From: Dokdonella fugitiva
GTDB lineage: Bacteria; Pseudomonadota; Gammaproteobacteria; Xanthomonadales; Rhodanobacteraceae
Reading direction: 5' to 3'
DNA length: 64,000 nt
Assembly (NCBI RefSeq): GCF_014138265.1
Contig: NZ_JACGXL010000006.1
Location: 124,001-188,000, forward strand
The position numbers were made by a program, and so were the translations under genes. Positions within the stretch are counted from its first letter, which is position 1, and every line of letters begins with the position of its first letter. The notes under the pieces are model-generated. The model did not search any database. It was given only the letters and a program-made list of their open reading frames with translations, and had not been told where the DNA came from. Of the stretch, positions 27,654-38,887 are shown piece after piece.

Positions 27654-30600
27654 TCACAACGGGCTGCCGCCGAACTTCTGCGTGTACTGCACGTAGACGG
27701 TGCGGCCGACCGCGTCGAACCACGAGATGTCGTAGTACGGATACGCGGTGTAGGTCGGGTCGCGCGGCGGCATCTTGTTGAACAGGTTCGTCACCGCGAG
27801 CGAAAGCCGCGCGTGGTCGCCGAACGTGTATTGGGCGGACGCGTTGAAACGGTAGGTCGGCGCGATCGTCGGACCCGGATCGCCGTCCTCCCAGACCTGG
27901 TCGTACGACCAGCCGTTCGGCAGGCGGCCGAGGCGCTCGCCGTGCAAGGTCGCCGACCACGCGTCCTTCTCCCAGGTCACGCTCGCGCTGGTCTTCGTGC
28001 GCGGGATGTCGAAACCGCTGTTGAGCGCGAACTCGTCCTCGACGCGATCGCCGGCGTACTGCTGGAAGTCGTGGCGCCTGACCCAGGTGTGGTTGGCCGA
28101 CAGCGTGAAGCGGCCGATCGTCGTGTCGAAGCGGTAATGCGCGGAGAGGTCGACGCCGCTGGTGGTTTCGCGCGCGACGTTGATCGGGTTGACGTAGATG
28201 CCGTAGAGCGAACCGTTGCTGCTGCGCGTGATGCGCGCGAGCGCGTCGACGCAGGTCGGCGAATCGATGTCGAGGGTACCGAGGCGGCACGACGCTTCGT
28301 CGCGCAGGATCGAATCGACGCTCATGTCCTGCACCTGGTTGCGCATGTCGATGTCGAACCAATCGAGCGAGAGGTCGACGCCGTCGAGCGGCGACCAGAC
28401 GAAGCCCGCGGTCCAGGACTTGCTGGTTTCCGGATCGAGCTTGCGGTTGCCTTCGCGCGTGCGGATCAGCCCTTCGGAATACTCCTCGCAATCCTCGGCC
28501 TGGTCGCGCAGGCAGTTGTAGTAGTCGATGCCCGAGGTCTCGTCGTTGCCGACGCCGGCGTAGACGTAGTGCAGGTCGGGCGCGCGGAACGCGGTGCCGT
28601 ACGAGCCGCGCACGAGCAGGCTGTCGATCGGGCGCCATTCGAGGCCGGTGCTCCAGGTCGCCTTGCCGACGGAACGCCCGGAAAAGCGGTACTGGTCGTA
28701 GCGCCCCGCGACGCTGAGGTCGAGCGAATCGAGCACCGGCATGCGCAATTCGCCGGCGGTCGCCCAGCGGTTGCGACTGCCGTGGCCGTCGGAGTCGCGC
28801 CAGCTGTAGTAGTAGTACTGGGTCGCGAGCGGATCGGGATTGAGGTCGTACGACTGCTGCCCGAGTTCGACCGTGCCGGAAAATCCGGCGTCGCCGCCGG
28901 GCAGCGCGAACAGGTCGATCGTGCTCGCCGTGAACGCAGCCGTGCTCGTTTCCGATTCCGGGTGGTAGACCGTGCGCGCGGCGATCGAATCGTATTCGGC
29001 ACGCGTGAGCGGCGTGTACAGGCGCGACGGGTCGGCATCGAAGATCGGCAGGCCGTCCTCGTCCACGCCGAGCTGCTCGCCGAGGAACAGCGCATTCGCG
29101 CGCGCGGCGACGATCTGCGGCCAGCTGATCGTCGCCTCGTAGCGCGAATGGCTCAGCGACGCCTCGTAGTTCCACGATTCGCCGAACGTGCCCTTGAAGC
29201 CGGTGGTGATGCCGAACGTGCGCTGCGTCGTCTCGATCATGCCGCGGTTCAGGCCGCCCATTTCCTCGGGCGAGAACTGGCGCTGCCAGAACTCGACGCC
29301 GCCGGTCGCCTGGTTGGAGAAGTAGCCTTCCTCGTTGCCGTCGGGTGCCATGTAGCTCCAAGACGTGACGTCGCGGAAGATGTCGACCGTGTGGTGCCCG
29401 GCCTGGATGTCGGCGAACCATTCGCTGCCGTTGCCGAACGCGTACGACAGCGACGCGTAGCCGTTGATGCCGCGCCGCTTGCTGAGGATCGTGCCGTAGC
29501 CGATCGCCTTGTCGCTGCCGCAGTAGTAGCCAGGGCCGTAGTCGTCGAGTTCTGGATCGTACGGCCCCCAGCCGGGGCGCGACGCGTAGTAGGTGCTGTC
29601 GTGGTTCTGGCTCGCGAGCGCGTCGCAGGCCGCGCGGCCGGGATCGAGGTAGGTGTCGGTGTCGTCGGTGCGCAGGTACGCACGGCGCGGCGCGCGTGCG
29701 CTTTCGGTCGGCGCGTCGAGCGTGGAATCCTGGATGTCGCGGTCGTACGCCCACAGCGGGTTCTGCGAGGTGAGCTCGAGGCTGTACACGCCGCTGAAGT
29801 CGCCGTGCTCGAAGCCGCTGACGATGCTGGCGTCGAACGATGAGCCGCCGCCTTCGGTGGTCGTGCCTGCGCGCACGTCGAGGATCGTGCCGTCGATGTG
29901 CTTCTTGAGGATGAAGTTGACGACGCCGGAGATCGCGTCCGAGCCGTAGATCGCCGACGCGCTGCCGGTGAGCACTTCGATGCGGTCGATCATCCCGATC
30001 GGGATGCTGGAGATGTCGGTGAAGTTGCTGCGGCCCTTGAACGGCATCGGGAAGTCGGCGATGCGGCGGCCGTTGACGAGCACGAGCGTGTGGTTGGGCC
30101 CGAGTCCGCGCAGGTCGACCTGCTGCGCGCCGGGCGAGAAATCGGCGCCGCTCGCCGACTGCTGGCTCTGCGTCTCGCCGCCGTTCTGCGTCATCGCGCG
30201 CAGCACGTCGGGTACGGTGGTGAAACCGTTCGCCTTGATCTCCGCGGCCGTGATCACCGTGATCGGCGCCGGCCCTTCGATCTGCGCGCGCGGAATGCGC
30301 GACCCGGTGACCTGCAAGGTCTCGAATTTCGTCACCGGCTTGTCGTCCGGCGCCGGCGTGCTCGCGGGCGTGCTCTTCGCCGGTGCGGCCGTCGCCGGCG
30401 GGCGTTCCGTCGCGGCCTTGTCGCGCTCGATCAGCACCGCCCCCGACGATGCATCGCGCGTCGCGCTGAAGCCGCTGCCTCGCAGCAGGCTGTCGAGCGC
30501 CTGCTCGGTCGACGTCGCGCCGTGCACGCCCGGCGTGTGTACGCCCTTGAGCTGGTCGGCGCGATAGACGAGCTGCGTGCCCGACTGGCGCGCGAGCGTG

Positions 30601-30728
30601 TTGAGCGCGGTCGCGAGGTCGCCCGCGGGCAGGTCGATCGTCGTCGGCGACGAGGACACCTGGGCCTGCGCCGCGAGCGCGGTGGAGCAGGCGAAACAGA
30701 GCAGCAGCATACGCAACGGTCGACGCAT
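27654..30728 (-). CDS. TonB-dependent outer-membrane receptor with STN signalling domain
   Basis: A 1024-residue outer-membrane receptor. After a signal peptide ending in STALAAQA, residues ~25-105 are an STN (secretin/TonB N-terminal) domain (IDLPAGDLATALNTLARQSG) used in transmembrane signalling to FecR. Then come a proline-rich linker, a plug domain from ~145 (VPDVLRAMTQNGG, LRGLGPNHTLVLVNGRR) and a 22-strand-type beta-barrel ending in YVQYTQKFGGSPL. It is the last gene of a sigma-fecR-receptor operon and divergent from the cyanophycinase fusion. The ligand is unknown; a peptide or amino acid polymer product is suggested only by context. The start at 30728 gives the best signal peptide. 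Confidence 0.93.
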   Translation of the reverse strand: MRRPLRMLLLCFACSTALAAQAQVSSSPTTIDLPAGDLATALNTLARQSGTQLVYRADQLKGVHTPGVHGATSTEQALDSLLRGSGFSATRDASSGAVLIERDKAATERPPATAAPAKSTPASTPAPDDKPVTKFETLQVTGSRIPRAQIEGPAPITVITAAEIKANGFTTVPDVLRAMTQNGGETQSQQSASGADFSPGAQQVDLRGLGPNHTLVLVNGRRIADFPMPFKGRSNFTDISSIPIGMIDRIEVLTGSASAIYGSDAISGVVNFILKKHIDGTILDVRAGTTTEGGGSSFDASIVSGFEHGDFSGVYSLELTSQNPLWAYDRDIQDSTLDAPTESARAPRRAYLRTDDTDTYLDPGRAACDALASQNHDSTYYASRPGWGPYDPELDDYGPGYYCGSDKAIGYGTILSKRRGINGYASLSYAFGNGSEWFADIQAGHHTVDIFRDVTSWSYMAPDGNEEGYFSNQATGGVEFWQRQFSPEEMGGLNRGMIETTQRTFGITTGFKGTFGESWNYEASLSHSRYEATISWPQIVAARANALFLGEQLGVDEDGLPIFDADPSRLYTPLTRAEYDSIAARTVYHPESETSTAAFTASTIDLFALPGGDAGFSGTVELGQQSYDLNPDPLATQYYYYSWRDSDGHGSRNRWATAGELRMPVLDSLDLSVAGRYDQYRFSGRSVGKATWSTGLEWRPIDSLLVRGSYGTAFRAPDLHYVYAGVGNDETSGIDYYNCLRDQAEDCEEYSEGLIRTREGNRKLDPETSKSWTAGFVWSPLDGVDLSLDWFDIDMRNQVQDMSVDSILRDEASCRLGTLDIDSPTCVDALARITRSSNGSLYGIYVNPINVARETTSGVDLSAHYRFDTTIGRFTLSANHTWVRRHDFQQYAGDRVEDEFALNSGFDIPRTKTSASVTWEKDAWSATLHGERLGRLPNGWSYDQVWEDGDPGPTIAPTYRFNASAQYTFGDHARLSLAVTNLFNKMPPRDPTYTAYPYYDISWFDAVGRTVYVQYTQKFGGSPL

Positions 30729-30834
30729 CGACGACACTCCCCAGGGTGCTCGGGACGGCACCTTCCCGATCACCGGGACGAACGAACGACCCAATCCCCC
30801 CATCACCCTGCGACGACGTCCGGGCGCTGCGCGA

Positions 30835-31878
30835 TCAGCGCGCGTGCAGCACGATCCGGTCGGGCAGCCGCTCGGCGCGCACGGGGAAGCCCATTTCGAG
30901 CAGCTTCACGAAGCTGTCGAGGTTGGCCCAGCGGAAGTTGCCGCCGACGCGCAGCTCGCCCACGCCGGCGTCGGCGAGCTCGAGCTTGCGCGTGTTGAAG
31001 CGGTTGAACTCGGCGGCGGCGCTCGCCAGCGAGGTGTCGTCGAACGTGAGGAATCCGCTGCGCCATTCGAGGTAGCGTTCCGCTTCGGCGACCGGCAGCG
31101 AGCGCACGAGCACGCCGCTGCGCCCGGCGGTCGCGACGCTGCCCGCGGGCAGCAGCGACACCGGCGTGGCGCGGCCGTCGGCACCGGGCGGCGCGTCGAG
31201 CCGCACCTTGCCTTCGGTGACGACGACACGCACGTCCTGTGCGTCGCGGCGCACCGAGAAGCGCGTGCCGACCGCGATCGCGCGGCGGCCGTCGGCCGAC
31301 ACGACGAACGGCCGGCCCGCATCGTGCGCGACGTCGAAATAGGCTTCGCCCTGCAGCAGTTCGATGTCGCGCTCGCCGCGCGTCATGCGCACGTGCAGGC
31401 GGCTGTCGCTGCTGAGGACCGCGCTGCTGCCGTCGGCGAGCGTCACCGTCCGCAGTTGGCCGAGCGTGCTCGCGTAGTCCGCTTCCGAGCGGCCGCCGAG
31501 CTGCCAGCCGAGCCAGAGCGCCGCGCCGGTCGCGACGAGCGCGACTCCCGCCGCGAGCGCATGACGCCAGCGGCGCGCGCGCATCGGCGTCGCCGCGCCT
31601 GCCGCGGCGACATCGTGCGCGTGCGTGGCGTGCGCGACCGGGCCGAGCACCCACGCGCCGCGTGGCGGCACTTCGTCGCCGGGGAGCCCGGCGGCGAGCG
31701 CCTGCAGGCGACCCGCTTCGCGCCACGCCGCCTGCAGGCGCAGGAACTCGACGCGATGGCGCGTCGACGCGCACAGCCAGTCCTCGAGTGCGCGCGCGTC
31801 GTACGGGCTCCAGTCGCCGCGGTCGCGGCGCGCGAGCCATTCGGCCGCGGCCTGCTCAATCCGCCTGCTGTCGTGCAT
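30835..31878 (-). CDS. FecR-family membrane regulator (anti-sigma factor)
   Basis: A 347-residue protein. The cytoplasmic N-terminal DUF4880 segment (IEQAAAEWLARRDRGDWSP...EFLRLQAAWREA) is followed by one membrane helix (ALAAGVALVATGAALWLGW), a periplasmic FecR domain (LQGEAYFDVAHDAGRPFVV, VGTRFSVRR) and a C-terminal part that reads the receptor's STN domain. By analogy with FecR it holds the sigma factor inactive and releases or activates it when the receptor binds its ligand. The gene overlaps the sigma gene by 23 bases and lies 106 bases before the receptor. Confidence 0.93.
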   Translation of the reverse strand: MHDSRRIEQAAAEWLARRDRGDWSPYDARALEDWLCASTRHRVEFLRLQAAWREAGRLQALAAGLPGDEVPPRGAWVLGPVAHATHAHDVAAAGAATPMRARRWRHALAAGVALVATGAALWLGWQLGGRSEADYASTLGQLRTVTLADGSSAVLSSDSRLHVRMTRGERDIELLQGEAYFDVAHDAGRPFVVSADGRRAIAVGTRFSVRRDAQDVRVVVTEGKVRLDAPPGADGRATPVSLLPAGSVATAGRSGVLVRSLPVAEAERYLEWRSGFLTFDDTSLASAAAEFNRFNTRKLELADAGVGELRVGGNFRWANLDSFVKLLEMGFPVRAERLPDRIVLHAR

Positions 31879-32446
31879 CGCCGTCGTCCTCGTCGGTGGC
31901 CGTCCATGCCGGGGCTTCGCCGTCGCGCGGCGGCATGCCGCCGTACAAGTGGTCGGCGATCAGGCGCATCCCCTTGGCCAGGTGTTTTTCCACGGTCTTG
32001 CCGCTGATGCCCAGGCGTCGCGCGACGTCCTTCTGCGGAAGTTCCTCGACCCGCCGCAACCACACCACTTCGCGGCAGCGGTCGGGCAGGCGGTCGAGCG
32101 CTTCGGCGAGCCGCTTGAGCGCCTGGCGCGCACCCACCCAGCGCTCGGGCGACACGTCGTCGACCAGATAGACGTTCGAGGGCTCGAAATCACCCACCGG
32201 CTCGATCGACACGACGCGGCCGCGACGCGCGCGGTCGGTCATGAGGTGGCGCGCGGTCGTGAACAGGAACGCCTGCGGCGACGCCGGGCGGTTGCGCGCG
32301 GCCGCCTCGTACACGCGCGCGTAGACCTCCTGGCGCAGGTCGTGCAGTTCGTCGCGATGCGGCCAGCAGCGCTGCAGGTATTGCGCGAGCGCGCGCTCGT
32401 GCACGAGGATCTCGCGGACGAACCAGTCATCGAAGTCGGTCGGCAT
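31856..32446 (-). CDS. FecI-type ECF sigma factor
   Basis: A 196-residue extracytoplasmic-function sigma factor. The region 2-like segment is DDWFVREILVHERALAQYLQ...LHDLRQEVYARVYEAA with FLFTTARHLMTDRARRG, and region 4 is LDRLPDRCREVVWLRRVEELPQKDVARRLGISGKTVEKHL, a helix-turn-helix for the -35 element. The ATG at 32446 starts the sigma domain directly; the open frame upstream runs through a repeat. It is expected to direct transcription of the receptor gene and perhaps the divergent peptidase gene. Confidence 0.93.
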   Translation of the reverse strand: MPTDFDDWFVREILVHERALAQYLQRCWPHRDELHDLRQEVYARVYEAAARNRPASPQAFLFTTARHLMTDRARRGRVVSIEPVGDFEPSNVYLVDDVSPERWVGARQALKRLAEALDRLPDRCREVVWLRRVEELPQKDVARRLGISGKTVEKHLAKGMRLIADHLYGGMPPRDGEAPAWTATDEDDGDARQQAD

Positions 32447-32477
32447 GCGGTCACTGTACCAAGGGACACAGGATGTC

Positions 32478-32600
32478 ACCTCTCCCGCCTGCGGGAGAGG
32501 TCGCGCCGCAAGGCGCGGGTGAGGGAAGCTTTGCGAAGGCCTAACGCGGCCTTCCCTCATCCGCCTCCGGCACCTTCTCCCGCAAGCGGGAGAGGGGACA
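32478..32600. repeat. Paired palindromic repeats of the CTCTCCCGC family (family C, copy 1)
   Basis: CCTCTCCCGCCTGCGGGAGA starts at 32479, followed by GGCGCGGGTGAGGGAAGC. From 32549 a mirrored unit reads CCTTCCCTCATCCGCC and ends in TCTCCCGCAAGCGGGAGA. This bipartite element fills half of the 231-base gap between the divergent sigma factor and cyanophycinase genes. Related copies are at 44507 (inside manC) and 48811. Short elements of this kind are widespread in high-GC proteobacteria. Confidence 0.8.
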
Positions 32601-32677
32601 GCGATGGGGGAAGCCGGTCGGCGGTTCGTCTAACGAAGCGGCAGCGATCCGCTGCGCCTTCGACGAGGAGTGGCGGC

Positions 32678-34612
32678 ATGATGCGCGTGACGGCCGGATA
32701 CCGATGGATCGCGAGCGTGCTGCTCGCCAGCGCGTTCGCAGGCGTGGCGCACGCCGCCGCGCACTACGATCGCTACGTGCTCGGCGACACGGTGGCGAAG
32801 ACGCCTGGTCGCGTGCAGCCCGGCCTGCTGCTGATGGGCGGCGGCGACCGCAACTTCGACGCGTTGCGCTGGTTCATGCAGCGTGCCGGCAACGGCCACG
32901 TCGTCGTGCTGCGCGCGTCGCAGGCGGGCGAGATCGGCGAGGAGTTCTACAAGGACGTCGGCGGCATCGCGTCGGTCGAGACGTTCGTGTTCAAGGATCG
33001 CGAAGCGTCGACGGATGCGGCGATCCTGCGCAGCCTCAAGCGCGCCGACGCCATCTTCATCGGCGGCGGCGACCAGTCGCGCTACGTGCGCTACTGGCGC
33101 GGCACGCCGGTCGGCGCGGCGCTCGACGCGCACGTGCGCGCGGGCAAGCCGCTCGGCGGAACCAGCGCCGGCCTCGCGATGCTCGGTGAATACCTCTACG
33201 GCGCGATGGACGGCGGCAGCCAGATCAGCCCGCGCGCGCTCGCCGACCCGCTCGGCGCCGAGAACACGATCGAGGCGGACTTCCTCCACCTCGAACGCCT
33301 CAAGGGCATTGTCACCGACACGCATTTCAGCGAGCGCAACCGGCTCGGCCGGCTCATCGCGTTCGTCGCCAAGGCGGAGTCGATCGCCGGACGGCCGCTG
33401 CTCGGCCTCGGCGTCGACGAGGATGCCGCGGTCGCGGTCGACGGTGACGGCGACGCGCGCGTGTACGCGACCGCGCCCGGTGCGGGCGCGACCGTCGTGA
33501 AAGGCGGCTTCGTCGCGCAGGCCGAGGACAAGCCGATGCAGCAGACGCGCGTCGACACGATCGGCGTCGGCACCGGTTCGCTGCTGCACCTGCCCGACGG
33601 GCGCGTCGACACGCCGATGTTCGAGCGCCATTACGCGGTGCGCGACGGCGTGCTCGTGTCGATGGCCTCGCCGCTGCTGGTCATCCACGGCGGCGCGGGC
33701 GTCGAGCGCAAGGAGATGACGCCGGCCGACGAGGACGCTGCGCGCACCGCGCTCGCGGCCGCGCTGCGCGCAGGTCACGCGCAGCTCGTCGCGGGCAAGC
33801 CCGCGGCCGACGCGGTCACGGCGGCGATCACCGTGCTCGAGGATGCGCCGCAGTTCAACGCGGGCCGCGGTGCGGTGTTCAACCACGACGGCCGCAACGA
33901 GCTCGACGCGGCGCTGATGGACGGCGCGAGCGGCAAGGCGGGCGCGGTCGCCGGCGTGCATCGCGTGAAGAACCCGATCCTGCTCGCGCGCACGGTGATG
34001 GAGAAGTCGCGCCACGTGATGATGGTCGGCGCCGGCGCCGAGGCGTTCGCGAAGGAGCAGGGCGTCACCCTCGTCGATCCGAAGTACTTCCGCACCGACA
34101 AGCGCTGGCAGCAGCTGCAGAAGGCGCTCAGGGACGAAGCCGCGGGCGTCGCGCTGCTCGACGTCGGCAGGAACTACTTCGGCACCGTCGGCGCGCTCGC
34201 GCTCGACGTGCAGGGCCGCCTCGCCGCGGGCACCTCGACCGGGGGCATGACGAACAAGCGCTACGGCCGCATCGGCGATTCGCCGATCATCGGCGCGGGC
34301 ACGTGGGCCGACGACCGCTGCGCGGTGTCGGGCACGGGCTGGGGCGAGTTCTACATCCGCGACGCGGCCGCGCACGAGATCTGCGCGCGCGTGCGCCTGT
34401 CGGGCGAATCGATCGCGCGCGCCGCGCGCGGCGTCATCAACGGCGACATCCCGAAGGCTGGCGGCGACGGCGGCGCGATCGCGCTCGCGAGCGACGGTTC
34501 GTTCGCGCTGCCGTTCAACACCGAAGGCATGTACCGCGGCTGGATCGGCGCCGACGGCGAGCCGCACGTGGCGATCTACGCGCAGGACACGTTGCGCGGC
34601 GACCAGCACTGA
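32678..34612 (+). CDS. Secreted cyanophycinase-isoaspartyl peptidase fusion
   Basis: A 644-residue protein with a signal peptide (IASVLLASAFAGVAHA) and two complete hydrolase modules. Residues ~30-325 are a family S51 cyanophycinase: LLLMGGGDRNFDALRW, IFIGGGDQSRYVRYW and the nucleophile Ser163 in GGTSAGLAMLGEY. Residues ~332-644 are a plant-type asparaginase/isoaspartyl peptidase (Ntn hydrolase): LLVIHGGAGVERKE, FNAGRGAVFN, the autocatalytic nucleophile Thr503 in YFGTVGALALD, and GTSTGGMTNKRYGRIGDSP. Cyanophycinase cuts cyanophycin to beta-Asp-Arg and the second activity cuts that to Asp and Arg, so one exported protein could do both. The ATG at 32678 has GAGGAG seven bases upstream. It is divergent from a FecI-FecR-TonB receptor operon. 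Confidence 0.9.
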   Translation: MMRVTAGYRWIASVLLASAFAGVAHAAAHYDRYVLGDTVAKTPGRVQPGLLLMGGGDRNFDALRWFMQRAGNGHVVVLRASQAGEIGEEFYKDVGGIASVETFVFKDREASTDAAILRSLKRADAIFIGGGDQSRYVRYWRGTPVGAALDAHVRAGKPLGGTSAGLAMLGEYLYGAMDGGSQISPRALADPLGAENTIEADFLHLERLKGIVTDTHFSERNRLGRLIAFVAKAESIAGRPLLGLGVDEDAAVAVDGDGDARVYATAPGAGATVVKGGFVAQAEDKPMQQTRVDTIGVGTGSLLHLPDGRVDTPMFERHYAVRDGVLVSMASPLLVIHGGAGVERKEMTPADEDAARTALAAALRAGHAQLVAGKPAADAVTAAITVLEDAPQFNAGRGAVFNHDGRNELDAALMDGASGKAGAVAGVHRVKNPILLARTVMEKSRHVMMVGAGAEAFAKEQGVTLVDPKYFRTDKRWQQLQKALRDEAAGVALLDVGRNYFGTVGALALDVQGRLAAGTSTGGMTNKRYGRIGDSPIIGAGTWADDRCAVSGTGWGEFYIRDAAAHEICARVRLSGESIARAARGVINGDIPKAGGDGGAIALASDGSFALPFNTEGMYRGWIGADGEPHVAIYAQDTLRGDQH

Positions 34613-34660: not shown

Positions 34661-35611
34661 TCACGGTCGTCGATGGCTCGAGTGCGCGCGCGGCGGTGTC
34701 GGCGCGTCGACGGGCGTGACGAGGCCGGGTCGGTAGATCGCCGCGAGCGCGCGCATCCGCTCACCCTGCTGCGGCGTGAAGTGGTTCGTGCACGCGTCGT
34801 CGCTGTAGTCCATGAAGTTCTCGACCGGATCGTCGCCGTCGTCCTGCGGGCAGCTGTCGCGGCCGGTCGCGCAGCCGAAGCCGGCGATCGCCTCCGCCGG
34901 CGTGTCCGCGACCTCGTCGCCGGGGGCGACGCAGCCGCCCTGGAACGTGTGCAGCAGACCGAAGTAGTGGCCGAGCTCGTGCACGAGCGTATGGCCGAGC
35001 GACAACGGGGCGGGGCTGCCGGGCACGCTCGCATGGTCGATGACGACGCCATGGCGCGGATCGTCCTCGGCGAATTCGTTGGGGAGCGTGCCGTAGCCGG
35101 CGATGTACGGCAGCGCGAGCCGGCACGAGTAGACGTTGACGAAGCGTTTCGGCTCGACCGCGAGTTCCGCCTTCATGCGCAGGCCCGATTCGGTCGTCGG
35201 AAAGCATCCGCCCGCGAAGTAGGGCGAATCGGGATAGCGGCGCACGGCGGCGACGACGAAGCGGAACCCGGCGGCGTCGAACGCATCGTTGACGACCGCG
35301 AGCTGGCGCGCGACGAGCTCGTCGTCGAGATCGCCTTCCCCGAGTGGGCCGCTGAGGACGTGGAAGACGATGCCCACGTCGATGCGCGCATTCGTCGTCG
35401 CGGCGGTCGCCACGCGCTCCCATCGCGCGCGCGCGAGCGCGGCTTCGAGTTCGGGCATGAAGATCGCGGGCGCGCCGGTGTCGTCGACGATGCGCACCTC
35501 GCCCGGCGTGGTGGGCGGCGGTGCCTGCGCGAGCGCCGCGAAGGGCAGTACCGCGACGAGGCACCCTGCCGCGAGGCGTGCCTTGCAGGCATTGCAGTGC
35601 ATCCGCTTCAT
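34661..35611 (-). CDS. Secreted M43-family zinc metalloprotease (pappalysin-like)
   Basis: A 316-residue protein with a signal peptide (LAAGCLVAVLPFAALAQA). The zinc site is HTLVHELGHYFGLLH, the full HExxHxxGxxH motif of metzincins, and the Met-turn is in NFMDYSDDACTNHFTPQQGERM, typical of M43B. Conserved cysteines in GGCVAPGDEVADTPAEA and CATGRDSCPQDDGD fit the family. It is expected to be exported and to cleave proteins outside the cell. The ATG at 35611 has AAGGGG upstream; another ATG three codons in is possible. It shares direction with the M36 protease upstream, 141 bases away. Confidence 0.9.
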   Translation of the reverse strand: MKRMHCNACKARLAAGCLVAVLPFAALAQAPPPTTPGEVRIVDDTGAPAIFMPELEAALARARWERVATAATTNARIDVGIVFHVLSGPLGEGDLDDELVARQLAVVNDAFDAAGFRFVVAAVRRYPDSPYFAGGCFPTTESGLRMKAELAVEPKRFVNVYSCRLALPYIAGYGTLPNEFAEDDPRHGVVIDHASVPGSPAPLSLGHTLVHELGHYFGLLHTFQGGCVAPGDEVADTPAEAIAGFGCATGRDSCPQDDGDDPVENFMDYSDDACTNHFTPQQGERMRALAAIYRPGLVTPVDAPTPPRAHSSHRRP

Positions 35612-35752
35612 CCGCCGGCCCCTTCGCCGATGCCTTCGACCATGGCTACGACGAGCGACGACGACGATGCGTCGCTGCCTCCGACAGCGGCGGCAATGCG
35701 CGGTGGGCGACACGACCGGCGGGGCCGGTCGCGTCGCTTCATTCCACGACGC

Positions 35753-38700
35753 TCAGTGGGCGTCGGCGACGACGCGGCTGAACATCGGCTGCGCCGCGCC
35801 CTGGATTTCGACGCGTGCGATCGCCCAGTGGCTGAAGTGCTCGAAGTAGCCGGCGTCGATGCGTGCATGCCAGCGCAGCTGCACGACGTGGCCCGCGAGC
35901 GAAGTGCCGAAGTCGAGCATGTCGTCGTGCCAGCCCGACGACGTGCCGGCGAACGTCGCGCTGCCGGCGACGAGGTAGGCGTCCGCCTCGGTCCACTCGC
36001 CGCCGTCGACGCTGACTTCGAGCGTGCCGCTGCCGGGCCGCGCGCGCGTGTCCGCGGGCAGGCGGTCGAACGCGTAGTCGTGGCGCACGACGACGCGCAG
36101 CGGCGCGCTCGCCGACACCGTGAACGGCCGGGTCGCGAGATGCGCGTCGATCGCCGCGTGCACGTCGCCGATCACGTAGGCGGGCCGGTTCGCGTAGGCG
36201 TCGCGATGCCAGTGCGTGCCGCAGTAGACGTAGCAGTAGTCGGGCGCGTCCGACTCGCCGAGGCCCGAGGTCCAGTCCGCCGCGAACGTCGGTGCCGCCG
36301 CGAGCGTGTCGACGCTGCGGTCTAGCACGAGGTCGTAGTTGACGCGGAACGCGGCGTCGCGATGCGCCTGCGCTTCGCCGTGGCTGCGGTCGCCGGCGTC
36401 GATCGCGAGCGGCAGCTCGACCGCACCCGCGCGGCTCTGCACGCGCACGTCGAACTCCGCCGTGTGGCGTTCGCCCGGCGCGAGCGCGATGAAATTCTCG
36501 ACCGCGCCGTGCGGGAACACGTAGTCGCCCGCGCGTGCACGCACCTTCACGCGCACCGCGCCGAGCGGCGAGAAGCCGGTGTTCTGCAGCGTCACGCGCA
36601 GCACGCCGGTTTCGCCGCGGTCGAGCACGCCGTCGCCGTCGCCGTCCGCTTCGACGAGCTGCGCGTCGACGATGCCGAGCGCGCGCTCGGCGTCGGCGAA
36701 GCTCTCGATCGCGCCGCGCAGGTCGACCGAGTAGCGGTCGGGCGCGACCGCGCCCGCGCCGAGGCCGCGCTCGGCGAAGCCGCTGCGGCAGCGGCGGTAG
36801 TCCGCTTCGCTGTCGGCGCGAATCACCGCGAGCAGCGCGTTGCGCGCCTCGAGGTAGTCGGCATCGGCCGGAATGAGCTTGAGCGAGGCGACGAGGTCGG
36901 CGAGGAAGCGGTTGCGCGTCGCCTCGAACCGGGACGGCGCGGCCGCCGCGAGCATGCCGCGCGAGCATTGCCAGAGCGCCTCGGTCCAGACTTCGCCCGC
37001 GGTGTGGATCTCCGCGTTGGTGAGCGATCGCAGCTTCCAGTCGTAGCCGCGTAGGCTGTCCGGCAGCGGGTGGTCCATGCCGATCGCGGCGAACGTGAGC
37101 GGATTGATCGCGAGGTCGGCACTGTGCGGGAAGCGACGGATGCCGTGGTAGTACGTGTCGTCTGGGTGGCCGGGCGATCCCGCAGCGGGAAACGGGTCGC
37201 GCGGGAAGTCGTAATCGCGGTTCATGTACGCGCCGATCGCGTAGTTGCCGTAGAACGGCGGGCGATCCGGCATCGCGTCGCGGTCTTCGGCGCGCACGCT
37301 CAGCAACAGGCCGACGAAGTCGGCGATACCCTCGTTGAGCGCGCCCTGCTGGCCCGCGTACGACATGCGCGTGAGGCGGCCGAACATCGTGTGCGACCAC
37401 TCGTGCGCGAGCACGCCGAAGTCGAGCGCGCTGACGTCGCGGTTGCTCCGCGAATAGACGTTCGCGCCGAGGAACAGCGCGCCGTTGGTGTTGCCGTCGT
37501 CTTCCGAGACGAGCGTGAAGGTACCCGCGTACGCAGCCGAGACCAGCAGCGGATCGCCGCCGATGCCTCCGCGGCCGTAGTTGTCGACCTGCATGTTGCC
37601 GGCCTGCTCGTCGTAACCGAGGTCGTAGAACAGGTCGTGCAGCCAGTTGGTCGCGTAGAACGCCTGCACGATCTTCGCGTCGAGCTGCGGCGAGGTGGTC
37701 GGGATCGGCTGCGGCAGTCCGTCGCCGTCGCATTGCACGAAGTCGTTCAAGGTGTCGTTGGCGTCGTAGGCGTAGTCGAACGCGTGCGGGCCGCTCGCTG
37801 GCGCGCGGAAGTCGCCTTCCTCGGGCCGGAACTGCTCGTCCGACGCGTACGTGCAGTAGCCGTCGGCGTCGACGAGGTCGGCGTTGAAGAACGCGTCGAC
37901 GTTGTTGCCGGACGTCTCGGTGGCGTCGTCGGCGAGCCAGGGATCGCCGGTGCTGATGCCCGCGTGGCTCGCCGTGACGACGTTCATCGGCGCGGGCACG
38001 TCGGGCAGGTAGCCGCTCGGCAGGCGCGTCGGGTAAGGGTTCGTGAAGCCGTAGGGGTCGACGTACGGCACGCCGTCGGCGTTCGCGAACACGCGGTACG
38101 AGAACGGTACGAGGTCGTGCACGAGGTCGGTGCTCGACAGGATGCGGTCGTCGTCGGCGGACACGATCAGCGCGCGCGCGTCGAGACGGCCGACGCCCGG
38201 GCGGTGGCCGACGATCTCGATGCGGTACGCAGGCAGCAGTGCGTCGCGCGCCGGATACCACACGGGCTTCACACTGGCGGCGCGGTTCGGCACGAACGTC
38301 GGCGAACGCTCGATCGCGTAGCGCGTCGCGCCCGCGCGGTCGCCGTCGAGTTCGCGCATCGGGCTCGCCGCAAGCAGGCCGTCGATCGCGCCCGCCGCGA
38401 TGCGCAACGCGCGCAGCGGATCGCCGTGGAAGCCGCGCGCGTACGCCGTGGCCGCGTGCGGGCTGCGGCTGCCGCCGATCGCCTTCGGCTCGAGCGCGCG
38501 GTCGAGCAACACCGCGACGCGCGCACCGTAGACCTCGATGCCGTCGACCGCCTGCGGGAACTGCACGACGTACGGACCGTAACGTGTCGCATGCACGCGC
38601 GCGGCGACCGTCGGCGCGTCCGCCGCGGACGCCTTGGCGTCGCCGGCGAGCGCGCGTTGCGCGGCCGCGACGATCGCGTCGCGCGACGCGCCGCGTGGCT

Positions 38701-38887
38701 CGGCCGGCGTCGCCTTCGGCGCGGCCGTGTCGGCGTCGGCATCGAGCCAGCCGCGCTGCGACTCGAGATGGAGCGGTTCGAACCGCGCGTTGGCGGCATA
38801 CGGTGCGGCGATGGCGCCCTGGGCGCACGCGAGCACGAGGGCGAGCGGCCAGGACCTGCGCCGGGCGAAACGGTCGGGACTTTGCAT
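35753..38887 (-). CDS. Secreted M36-family (fungalysin-like) metalloprotease
   Basis: A 1044-residue protein with a signal peptide (WPLALVLACAQGAIAA), a propeptide-like region (residues ~30-280) and a peptidase domain with the zinc motif HEWSH near residue 494 and the third ligand in ALNEGIADFVGLLLS. These mark the M36 thermolysin-like family. The C-terminal ~300 residues contain DGDGDGVLDRGETGVLRVTLQNTG, a calcium-binding-like loop leading into CARDB/beta-sandwich-like modules seen in secreted proteases. It is expected to act extracellularly as a general protease. No DGFD-type motif is present at its end. Confidence 0.9.
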   Translation of the reverse strand: MQSPDRFARRRSWPLALVLACAQGAIAAPYAANARFEPLHLESQRGWLDADADTAAPKATPAEPRGASRDAIVAAAQRALAGDAKASAADAPTVAARVHATRYGPYVVQFPQAVDGIEVYGARVAVLLDRALEPKAIGGSRSPHAATAYARGFHGDPLRALRIAAGAIDGLLAASPMRELDGDRAGATRYAIERSPTFVPNRAASVKPVWYPARDALLPAYRIEIVGHRPGVGRLDARALIVSADDDRILSSTDLVHDLVPFSYRVFANADGVPYVDPYGFTNPYPTRLPSGYLPDVPAPMNVVTASHAGISTGDPWLADDATETSGNNVDAFFNADLVDADGYCTYASDEQFRPEEGDFRAPASGPHAFDYAYDANDTLNDFVQCDGDGLPQPIPTTSPQLDAKIVQAFYATNWLHDLFYDLGYDEQAGNMQVDNYGRGGIGGDPLLVSAAYAGTFTLVSEDDGNTNGALFLGANVYSRSNRDVSALDFGVLAHEWSHTMFGRLTRMSYAGQQGALNEGIADFVGLLLSVRAEDRDAMPDRPPFYGNYAIGAYMNRDYDFPRDPFPAAGSPGHPDDTYYHGIRRFPHSADLAINPLTFAAIGMDHPLPDSLRGYDWKLRSLTNAEIHTAGEVWTEALWQCSRGMLAAAAPSRFEATRNRFLADLVASLKLIPADADYLEARNALLAVIRADSEADYRRCRSGFAERGLGAGAVAPDRYSVDLRGAIESFADAERALGIVDAQLVEADGDGDGVLDRGETGVLRVTLQNTGFSPLGAVRVKVRARAGDYVFPHGAVENFIALAPGERHTAEFDVRVQSRAGAVELPLAIDAGDRSHGEAQAHRDAAFRVNYDLVLDRSVDTLAAAPTFAADWTSGLGESDAPDYCYVYCGTHWHRDAYANRPAYVIGDVHAAIDAHLATRPFTVSASAPLRVVVRHDYAFDRLPADTRARPGSGTLEVSVDGGEWTEADAYLVAGSATFAGTSSGWHDDMLDFGTSLAGHVVQLRWHARIDAGYFEHFSHWAIARVEIQGAAQPMFSRVVADAH

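Follow-up and report, generated by a model that had tools for sequence, protein, structure and literature searches.

The locus described here lies in a 64,000-nucleotide stretch of the Dokdonella fugitiva genome (contig NZ_JACGXL010000006.1, positions 124,001 to 188,000), hereafter the window. Its central gene, on the plus strand at 32678..34612, was identified from its open reading frame (ORF) and by Pfam, NCBIfam, and phmmer searches, and encodes an apparently exported protein of 644 amino acids (aa) in which a cyanophycinase-like domain of peptidase family S51 is fused to a plant-type isoaspartyl peptidase. Cyanophycin, a polymer, serves as a store of nitrogen in the environment; the two enzyme types joined in this protein are candidates for consecutive steps in its hydrolysis. 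Divergent from the fusion gene is a cassette encoding an extracytoplasmic function (ECF) sigma factor, a FecR anti-sigma factor, and a TonB-dependent receptor.

The fusion gene and its two domains

The frame of the fusion gene is still open 5' of 32678, where a 995-aa ORF begins at a GTG. The start was placed at the ATG at 32678 despite this longer ORF, because that codon begins a Sec-type signal peptide, ending ...AGVAHA/AAHYDR, and stands 47 nucleotides (nt) past a conserved promoter-like motif. The signal peptide (residues 1-26, 32678..32755, plus strand) was assigned by eye, and residues 1-25 have a predicted local distance difference test score (pLDDT) below 50. The S51 domain with its beta-rich C-terminal extension covers residues 30-326 (32765..33655, plus strand) and is followed by the isoaspartyl peptidase, an N-terminal nucleophile (Ntn) domain, at residues 329-644 (33662..34609, plus strand), which is predicted to consist of an alpha part reaching to residue 502 and a beta part starting at Thr503 (codon 34184-34186). 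Cleavage at this point would leave chains with calculated masses of 50.2 kDa (residues 27-502) and 14.6 kDa (residues 503-644).

The Pfam profile Peptidase_S51 (PF03575) matches residues 111-257 with 41.0 bits against a cut-off of 23.9, and Asparaginase_2 matches residues 332-634 with 352.2 bits against a cut-off of 27, covering profile positions 1-309 of 309 and hence a complete domain. In phmmer searches against the PDB, a query with the N-terminal part aligns CphB (3en0) to residues 40-264 (E 3.8e-16), and the E. coli isoaspartyl peptidase 2zak aligns to residues 333-636 (E 2.5e-79). By sequence, the fusion protein is a member of both the S51 and the Asparaginase_2 families. The ORF, Pfam, and phmmer results bear out the preliminary description of this DNA, which had proposed a 644-residue frame with a signal peptide, an S51 domain, and a complete isoaspartyl peptidase; the motifs that it named are likewise found in the translation, with GGGDQ at 129-133, Ser163 within GGTSAGLA, and Thr503 within FGTVGA, where the pair Gly502-Thr503 is present. 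The NCBIfam equivalog models are matched less well: TIGR02069 'cyanophycinase' scores 97.6 bits, under its cut-off of 126.6, and the beta-aspartyl-peptidase model NF007589 (PRK10226) scores 298.1 bits, under its cut-off of 567. These two cut-offs are annotation thresholds and do not measure activity; because both are missed, the domains are named here CphE-like and IaaA-like.

Related loci were picked by similarity to the window protein; 78 are listed and at least that number exist. When the S51 domain of the window protein is aligned with those of 54 loci, the key residues Gln133, Ser163, Asp214, His216, Arg220, Arg222, and Arg225 are invariant in 55/55 domains and Glu248 is kept in 53, while position 215, a threonine (Thr215) in the window protein, is Thr in 38, Ser in nine, Gln in six, and Met in two. 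The residues critical in CphB are given in PMC3235067 as Gln101, Asp172, Gln173, Arg178, Arg180, and Arg183, and CphE is described there as retaining them save for Gln173, which is replaced by Thr. The window protein carries the equivalents of Gln101, Asp172, Arg178, Arg180, and Arg183 as Gln133, Asp214, Arg220, Arg222, and Arg225, and the Ser/His/Glu catalytic set of cyanophycinases as Ser163, His216, and Glu248. In the second domain, the EcIaaA residues T179, T197, R207, D210, S211, T230, and G231, whose roles as nucleophile and substrate residues are taken from PMC10206079, correspond to T503, T521, R531, D534, S535, T553, and G554. Nine peptidase positions were checked, namely these seven and Asn394 and Gly556; eight of them, Thr503 included, are invariant in 78/78 domains and Ser535 is Ser in 56 of the 78.

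A predicted structure of the whole chain has a mean pLDDT of 86 and a predicted template modelling score (pTM) of 0.73 (52-row alignment), and in this prediction the segment joining the S51 core to the peptidase (approximately residues 265-330) is not a flexible linker but folds into beta structure. The S51 part was modelled separately (pLDDT 93.4, pTM 0.91, 46-row alignment) because the best 50 rows of a whole-chain Foldseek search all had the peptidase fold. For the separate model, the top nine PDB chains belong to 3en0, 7uqw, and 7uqv, and PepE-type and related peptidases rank next. The solved fold nearest to the predicted structure is of the cyanophycinase type, one of the entries, 7uqv, being titled 'pseudo-CphB'. 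A function like that of dipeptidase E (PepE) is disfavoured for the S51 domain by a score of 17.1 bits against 156 with the PepE equivalog NF003642, by the cyanophycinase-type folds among its nearest neighbours, and by its retention of GGDQ and RxRxxR; E. coli PepE, an aspartyl dipeptidase that also belongs to S51, has GGNT in place of GGDQ and is without the RxRxxR motif.

The divergent cassette and its promoter-like motif

The cassette lies on the minus strand. The ECF sigma factor (Sigma70_r2, r4_2) occupies 31856..32446, its ORF extending to 32560 with a likely start by eye at 32446; the FecR anti-sigma factor, found by a neighbour scan, lies at 30835..31878; and the TonB-dependent receptor, which carries an STN signalling domain, lies at 27654..30728, its ORF extending to 30806 with a likely start by eye at 30728. 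The components of a cell-surface signalling system, an ECF sigma factor, FecR, and an STN-bearing receptor, are all present.

The cassette proteins were searched by tblastn in the 78 listed loci, whose architecture was judged inside flanks of at most 6 kb, some of them shortened by contig ends; 44 loci are fused, nine have adjacent separate genes, 24 have the peptidase only, and one has S51 only. The receptor is found in 33/36 proteobacterial fused loci and 9/9 adjacent loci, that is, in 42/45 pair loci, and in each of those 42 it precedes the enzyme gene and is encoded on the minus strand. It is found in 0/24 peptidase-only loci and 0/1 S51-only locus, of which two are little informative, L062 among the peptidase-only loci having just 236 nt of upstream sequence and the S51-only locus 239 nt. 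ECF, FecR, and receptor genes are detected together in 31/36 fused and 7/9 adjacent loci. Fused loci that have both the receptor and the ECF gene include L011 (Pseudoxanthomonas suwonensis J47) and L007 (P. japonensis DSM 17109). No receptor is found in three of the pair loci: L013, which reaches a contig end and has FecR and ECF, L024, and L033. A divergent receptor also stands beside the fused gene in L096, from a proteobacterium, and L034 (Asticcacaulis), the latter with an Na+:dicarboxylate (SDF) symporter on the opposite side from the receptor.

The cassette and the fusion gene share a promoter-like motif. One copy, GGGAAGCCGGTCGGCGGTTCGTC, lies at 32608..32630 on the plus strand and ends 47 nt short of the ATG of the fusion gene; the other, GGGATTGGGTCGTTCGTTCGTC, lies at 30777..30798 on the minus strand and ends 48 nt before the likely receptor start codon at 30728. 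The upstream regions have GGGGGAA...GTTCGTC in common, and in a 7-mer trial GTTCGTC ranked first, occurring in 38 of the 46 upstream regions, with other 7-mers in 34-36. For counting, the pattern GGG[AC]-N11-14-TTCGTC was used, in which the gap is mostly 13 nt. It occurs upstream of the enzyme in 41/46 regions (45 proteobacterial pair loci and the window) and upstream of the receptor in 36/43 (42 loci and the window). In single-base shuffle controls the number of regions with a site averaged about 0.2 and never exceeded 2; among peptidase-only loci the pattern occurs in 1/24. Four loci that have the receptor and no ECF/FecR match (L016, L034, L044, and L072) have no pattern match on either side, the enzyme side of L016 containing TTCGTC behind a different leading part. 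A tighter pattern built from the two sites, GGGAW-N9-11-SGTTCGTC, matches the 4.77 Mb genome twice, each time at this locus, and its reversed control matches once; of the motif evidence, the lack of further sites in the genome has the greater independence. The cassette and the shared motif were missed by the preliminary description and are the strongest evidence for the function of the locus. Between the sigma factor and fusion genes, at 32475-32600, an inverted-repeat sequence resembling repetitive extragenic palindromic elements, CTCTCCCGC...GCGGGAGAG, was also seen by eye.

This setting bears on a quite different role for the fusion protein, the detoxification of an isoaspartyl-nucleotide antibiotic after the manner of MccG acting against microcin C. 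MccG is an S51 peptidase that cuts an isoaspartyl-nucleotide, but its target is released intracellularly and it falls in a different S51 clade from CphB (PMC9239234), whereas the window protein has a signal peptide and sits in a TonB/ECF system; we regard such a role as extremely improbable.

Downstream of the fusion gene, at 34661-38887 on the minus strand, are two metalloprotease genes (M43 and M36). They were rejected as members of the system on the ground that neither has a tblastn match (E 1e-8) in the 78 listed loci. These genes would suit a scavenging enzyme of general scope, exported to act on aspartyl and isoaspartyl peptides of aged proteins, in which the S51 domain would act like an Asp-X dipeptidase, the second domain would remove isoaspartyl residues, and cyanophycin would be incidental; so would the promiscuity that PMC10206079 ascribes to IaaA enzymes even within cyanophycin clusters. 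We consider a general scavenger unlikely, however, given the lack of a tblastn match to the two metalloproteases in the 78 listed loci, the conservation of GGDQ and the Arg motif that PepE lacks, and closest folds of the cyanophycinase type rather than PepE.

Distribution and descent of the fused architecture

A match spanning both domains occurs in 25/250 genomes of the order and in 3/398 genomes of the phylum (E up to 1e-125). With a Chitinophaga fusion as query (E up to 1e-120), the fusion was found in 1/296 Bacteroidota genomes, namely the seed genome, and at least two of the 296 carry the two as neighbouring genes, a lower bound in that the listing would omit weaker S51 matches. The frequency in the order rules out a one-off fusion, and the single two-domain frame in 44/78 loci, from isolates as well as metagenome-assembled genomes, rules out an assembly or frameshift artefact or a chance occurrence. 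Most adjacent and stand-alone peptidases likewise start with a signal peptide (by eye; L068 and L075 are not clear), so export of the peptidase is independent of fusion.

These observations qualify the earlier proposal that a single exported protein hydrolyzes cyanophycin: it agrees with the sequence, the predicted fold, and the genomic setting, but the architecture is recurrent and export of the peptidase is not specific to the fusion. The preliminary description had also considered that the fusion might be a common architecture already characterised. It is indeed recurrent, but no description or characterisation of an S51-isoaspartyl peptidase fusion was found in the literature searched, which largely omits subscription papers, and a word search of PMC10206079 gave no passage on a fusion. 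The sequences fit a recurrent architecture of known parts joined, which would keep the cyanophycinase on the alpha chain if the protein is cut before Thr503.

In a tree of the S51 domains, the Rhodanobacter fusions cluster with split genes of Lysobacter and Pseudoxanthomonas, away from the type found in the window, and in the peptidase tree the fusions of L033 and L034 fall outside the window's type. By the approximately unbiased (AU) test, a single clade of proteobacterial fusions is disfavoured for the S51 domain (p 2e-4) and for the peptidase without L033 and L034 (p 8e-9), as is one clade of the window-type, L033, and L034 peptidases (p 2e-14); these p-values are optimistic, the trees being quick ones and the groups having been chosen after viewing them. 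A reference tree in which PepE served as outgroup contains very long branches that converge, and no use was made of its deep placements. Because the fused genes form no single clade in either domain tree, fusion or fission appears to have recurred, and we read the pattern as repeated fusion, fission, or domain exchange, in either direction. Of the eight genomes with fusions in the window's own family (f1), six carry a different fusion type that is 58-59% identical, and the window protein is 70-80% identical to fusions of another family (f2). Transfer of the fusion between f1 and f2 is a possibility that these identities suggest.

In Bacteroidota, 7/8 fused loci (L050 ends at a contig end) have SusC/SusD homologues immediately upstream of the fusion, with only distant matches elsewhere in L060, and 2/2 split loci have them upstream of the split pair; the assignment was checked with Pfam in L042, L064, and L094. 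The gene order in L094 is ECF, FecR, SusC, SusD, S51, peptidase, second S51. A second, CphB-like S51 protein stands next to the peptidase in L093, L094, and L095, its L094 sequence showing DQHF and RxRxxR, and in L093 and L095 an SDF symporter, of the kind seen in L034, lies beside it.

The genome that contains the window has one Asparaginase_2 gene, no CphA1 over the cut-off (best 86.8 vs 850 bits), and no IadA over the cut-off (best 20.8 vs 331.25 bits). Since CphA1 is not found at that threshold, the polymer would be foreign, and the locus combines a cyanophycinase-type and an isoaspartyl peptidase domain without CphA1, as does a cyanophycin utilization locus. A second S51 protein (L109/L002), encoded at C1:646661-647395 of the same genome, scores 143.7 bits and exceeds the TIGR02069 cut-off; in it GCAGG replaces GTSAG and DxHF is missing, so that Ser and His appear lost. 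Its sequence marks it as a cyanophycinase homologue that is probably dead and that automated annotation might list as active.

The S51 proteins accompanying the fusion or found elsewhere also bear on what the S51 domain of the fusion does. It might be a pseudo-cyanophycinase that binds cyanophycin or another arginine-rich polymer without cutting it and leaves only the isoaspartyl peptidase active. The presence of the pseudo-CphB 7uqv among the best structural matches speaks for this, as do L093 and L094, where the additional CphB-like S51 could do the cutting. Against it, all 55 aligned domains keep the catalytic Ser and His, which would not be needed for mere binding, and the sole other S51 found in the window's own genome appears to have lost both; a binding-only domain is, in our judgment, decidedly unlikely. 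The real substrate could instead be another cyanophycin-like polymer, for instance a lysine-containing or otherwise isopeptide-linked poly-aspartate. Specificity may vary among clades, as the Thr, Ser, Gln, or Met beside the catalytic His would allow, and L093 and L094 hold a second S51 type alongside, but the pocket residues of CphB and CphE other than Gln173 are all retained, which makes a different polymer very improbable.

Proposed function and relation to known systems

We consider it likely that the fusion protein is an exported two-step cyanophycin hydrolase within a sensed, TonB-linked scavenging locus. The bases for this reading are the domains, the conserved residues, the predicted folds, the export signal seen by eye, the conservation of the locus, and the shared motif, from which we infer the substrate, import, regulation by this sigma factor, and self-cleavage at Thr503. 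The hydrolase would reside in the periplasm or outside the cell, where its CphE-like S51 serine-peptidase domain would cut the poly-aspartate backbone to release beta-Asp-Arg. The isoaspartyl peptidase domain, activated by self-cleavage before Thr503, would then cut beta-Asp-Arg into Asp and Arg, with the S51 domain remaining attached to the alpha chain, and hydrolysis would be completed outside the cytoplasm. The STN-type TonB receptor would sense and import cyanophycin or its fragments and signal through FecR, and the ECF sigma factor thus released would turn on the receptor and enzyme genes through the two matching promoters.

The fuller picture is a sense-import-digest regulon in which TonB-dependent import of cyanophycin, an ECF sigma factor with essentially two promoters, and a periplasmic protein whose domains were repeatedly joined or parted in evolution together yield Asp and Arg. 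We hold it more tentatively, at slightly short of an even chance. We know of no demonstrated TonB import of a polymer like cyanophycin, which is poorly soluble and which Gram-negative scavengers would meet outside the cell.

Several observations weigh against a cyanophycin hydrolase under the control of this cassette. At the level of the enzyme, the TIGR02069 score falls below the equivalog cut-off, and pseudo-CphB fits the S51 model nearly as well as CphB. The 7uqv protein is reportedly inactive. Because so similar a protein exists, intact residues and fold are insufficient to prove cyanophycinase activity, and because a further S51 protein of the CphB-like kind is present in L093 and L094, the S51 of the fused type could have another job. 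No amino-acid or dipeptide transporter is found among the seven scanned neighbours in the window. The sampling of loci by similarity to the window protein also counts here. L033 has a fusion without a detected receptor or ECF gene, its upstream genes being a class I tRNA synthetase and LytB, and in L024 a 76-residue receptor fragment (L024:5694-5921) lies by a fused gene that retains the promoter-like motif; the fragment looks like a decayed receptor. As for the motif, it was discovered and counted on the same sequences, and the counting pattern has seven sites in the window, five of them outside the two promoter-like sites. An ECF gene is present in L028, where the enzyme-side pattern is missed (CTCGTC), and in L023, L027 (a near match), and L029, which have no receptor-side match, while L024 and L033 have an enzyme-side match without a detected ECF gene.

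If the reading as a two-step hydrolase holds, the locus supplies a candidate importer, enzyme, and switch for cyanophycin scavenging. Biotechnology, to which the two steps are familiar as separate enzymes, could make use of a single protein that takes cyanophycin all the way to arginine and aspartate, and the recurrent joining in two phyla offers a natural case of the fusion of consecutive pathway steps.

Among characterized enzymes, CphE of Pseudomonas alcaligenes DIP1 (CphEal) and P. anguilliseptica BI (P. anguilliseptica CphE being Q8KQN8 in PMC10206079), compared here by description only, is like the window protein in being exported, in its Ser/His/Glu, Gln, Asp, and three Arg residues, and in having Thr, as at Thr215, where CphB has Gln173; it differs in that the cphEal gene, of 1260 bp and about 420 aa, cannot fit an extra peptidase domain (PMC3235067). 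CphB of Synechocystis (PDB 3en0, 7uqw) shares its fold and its catalytic and pocket residues with the S51 domain of the window protein, but it is intracellular, consists of a single domain, and has DQHF where the window protein, which misses the TIGR02069 cut-off, has DTHF. The likeness to IaaA/EcAIII extends over the entire domain, the nucleophile Thr, and the Asp-binding residues; E. coli IaaA, however, has 321 aa without an S51 domain and its gene precedes gsiA-D, whereas the domain in the window is apparently exported and has an S51 domain on its predicted alpha chain.

Cell-surface signalling of the FecI/FecR/FecA type couples an outer-membrane receptor, an anti-sigma factor, and an ECF sigma factor, and the window has consecutive genes for an ECF sigma factor, for FecR, and for a TonB receptor that bears an STN domain. 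The window cassette differs in that it would also control a polymer-degrading enzyme, the tighter motif being present at two genome sites. The cyanophycin utilization locus (Ben Hania et al., cited in PMC10206079) is similar in combining a cyanophycinase and an isoaspartyl peptidase with no CphA1, and in having a transporter nearby, for which the window has a candidate, but is said in that source to contain iadA. In the window the two enzymes are instead fused into a single protein, and the candidate transporter is of the TonB receptor type, accompanied by ECF/FecR. Citromicrobium had earlier been noted to have a TonB receptor close to a cyanophycinase gene (PMC3400609). By analogy with these systems, we read the locus as one that may work like a cyanophycin utilization locus joined to signalling of the FecI/FecR type.

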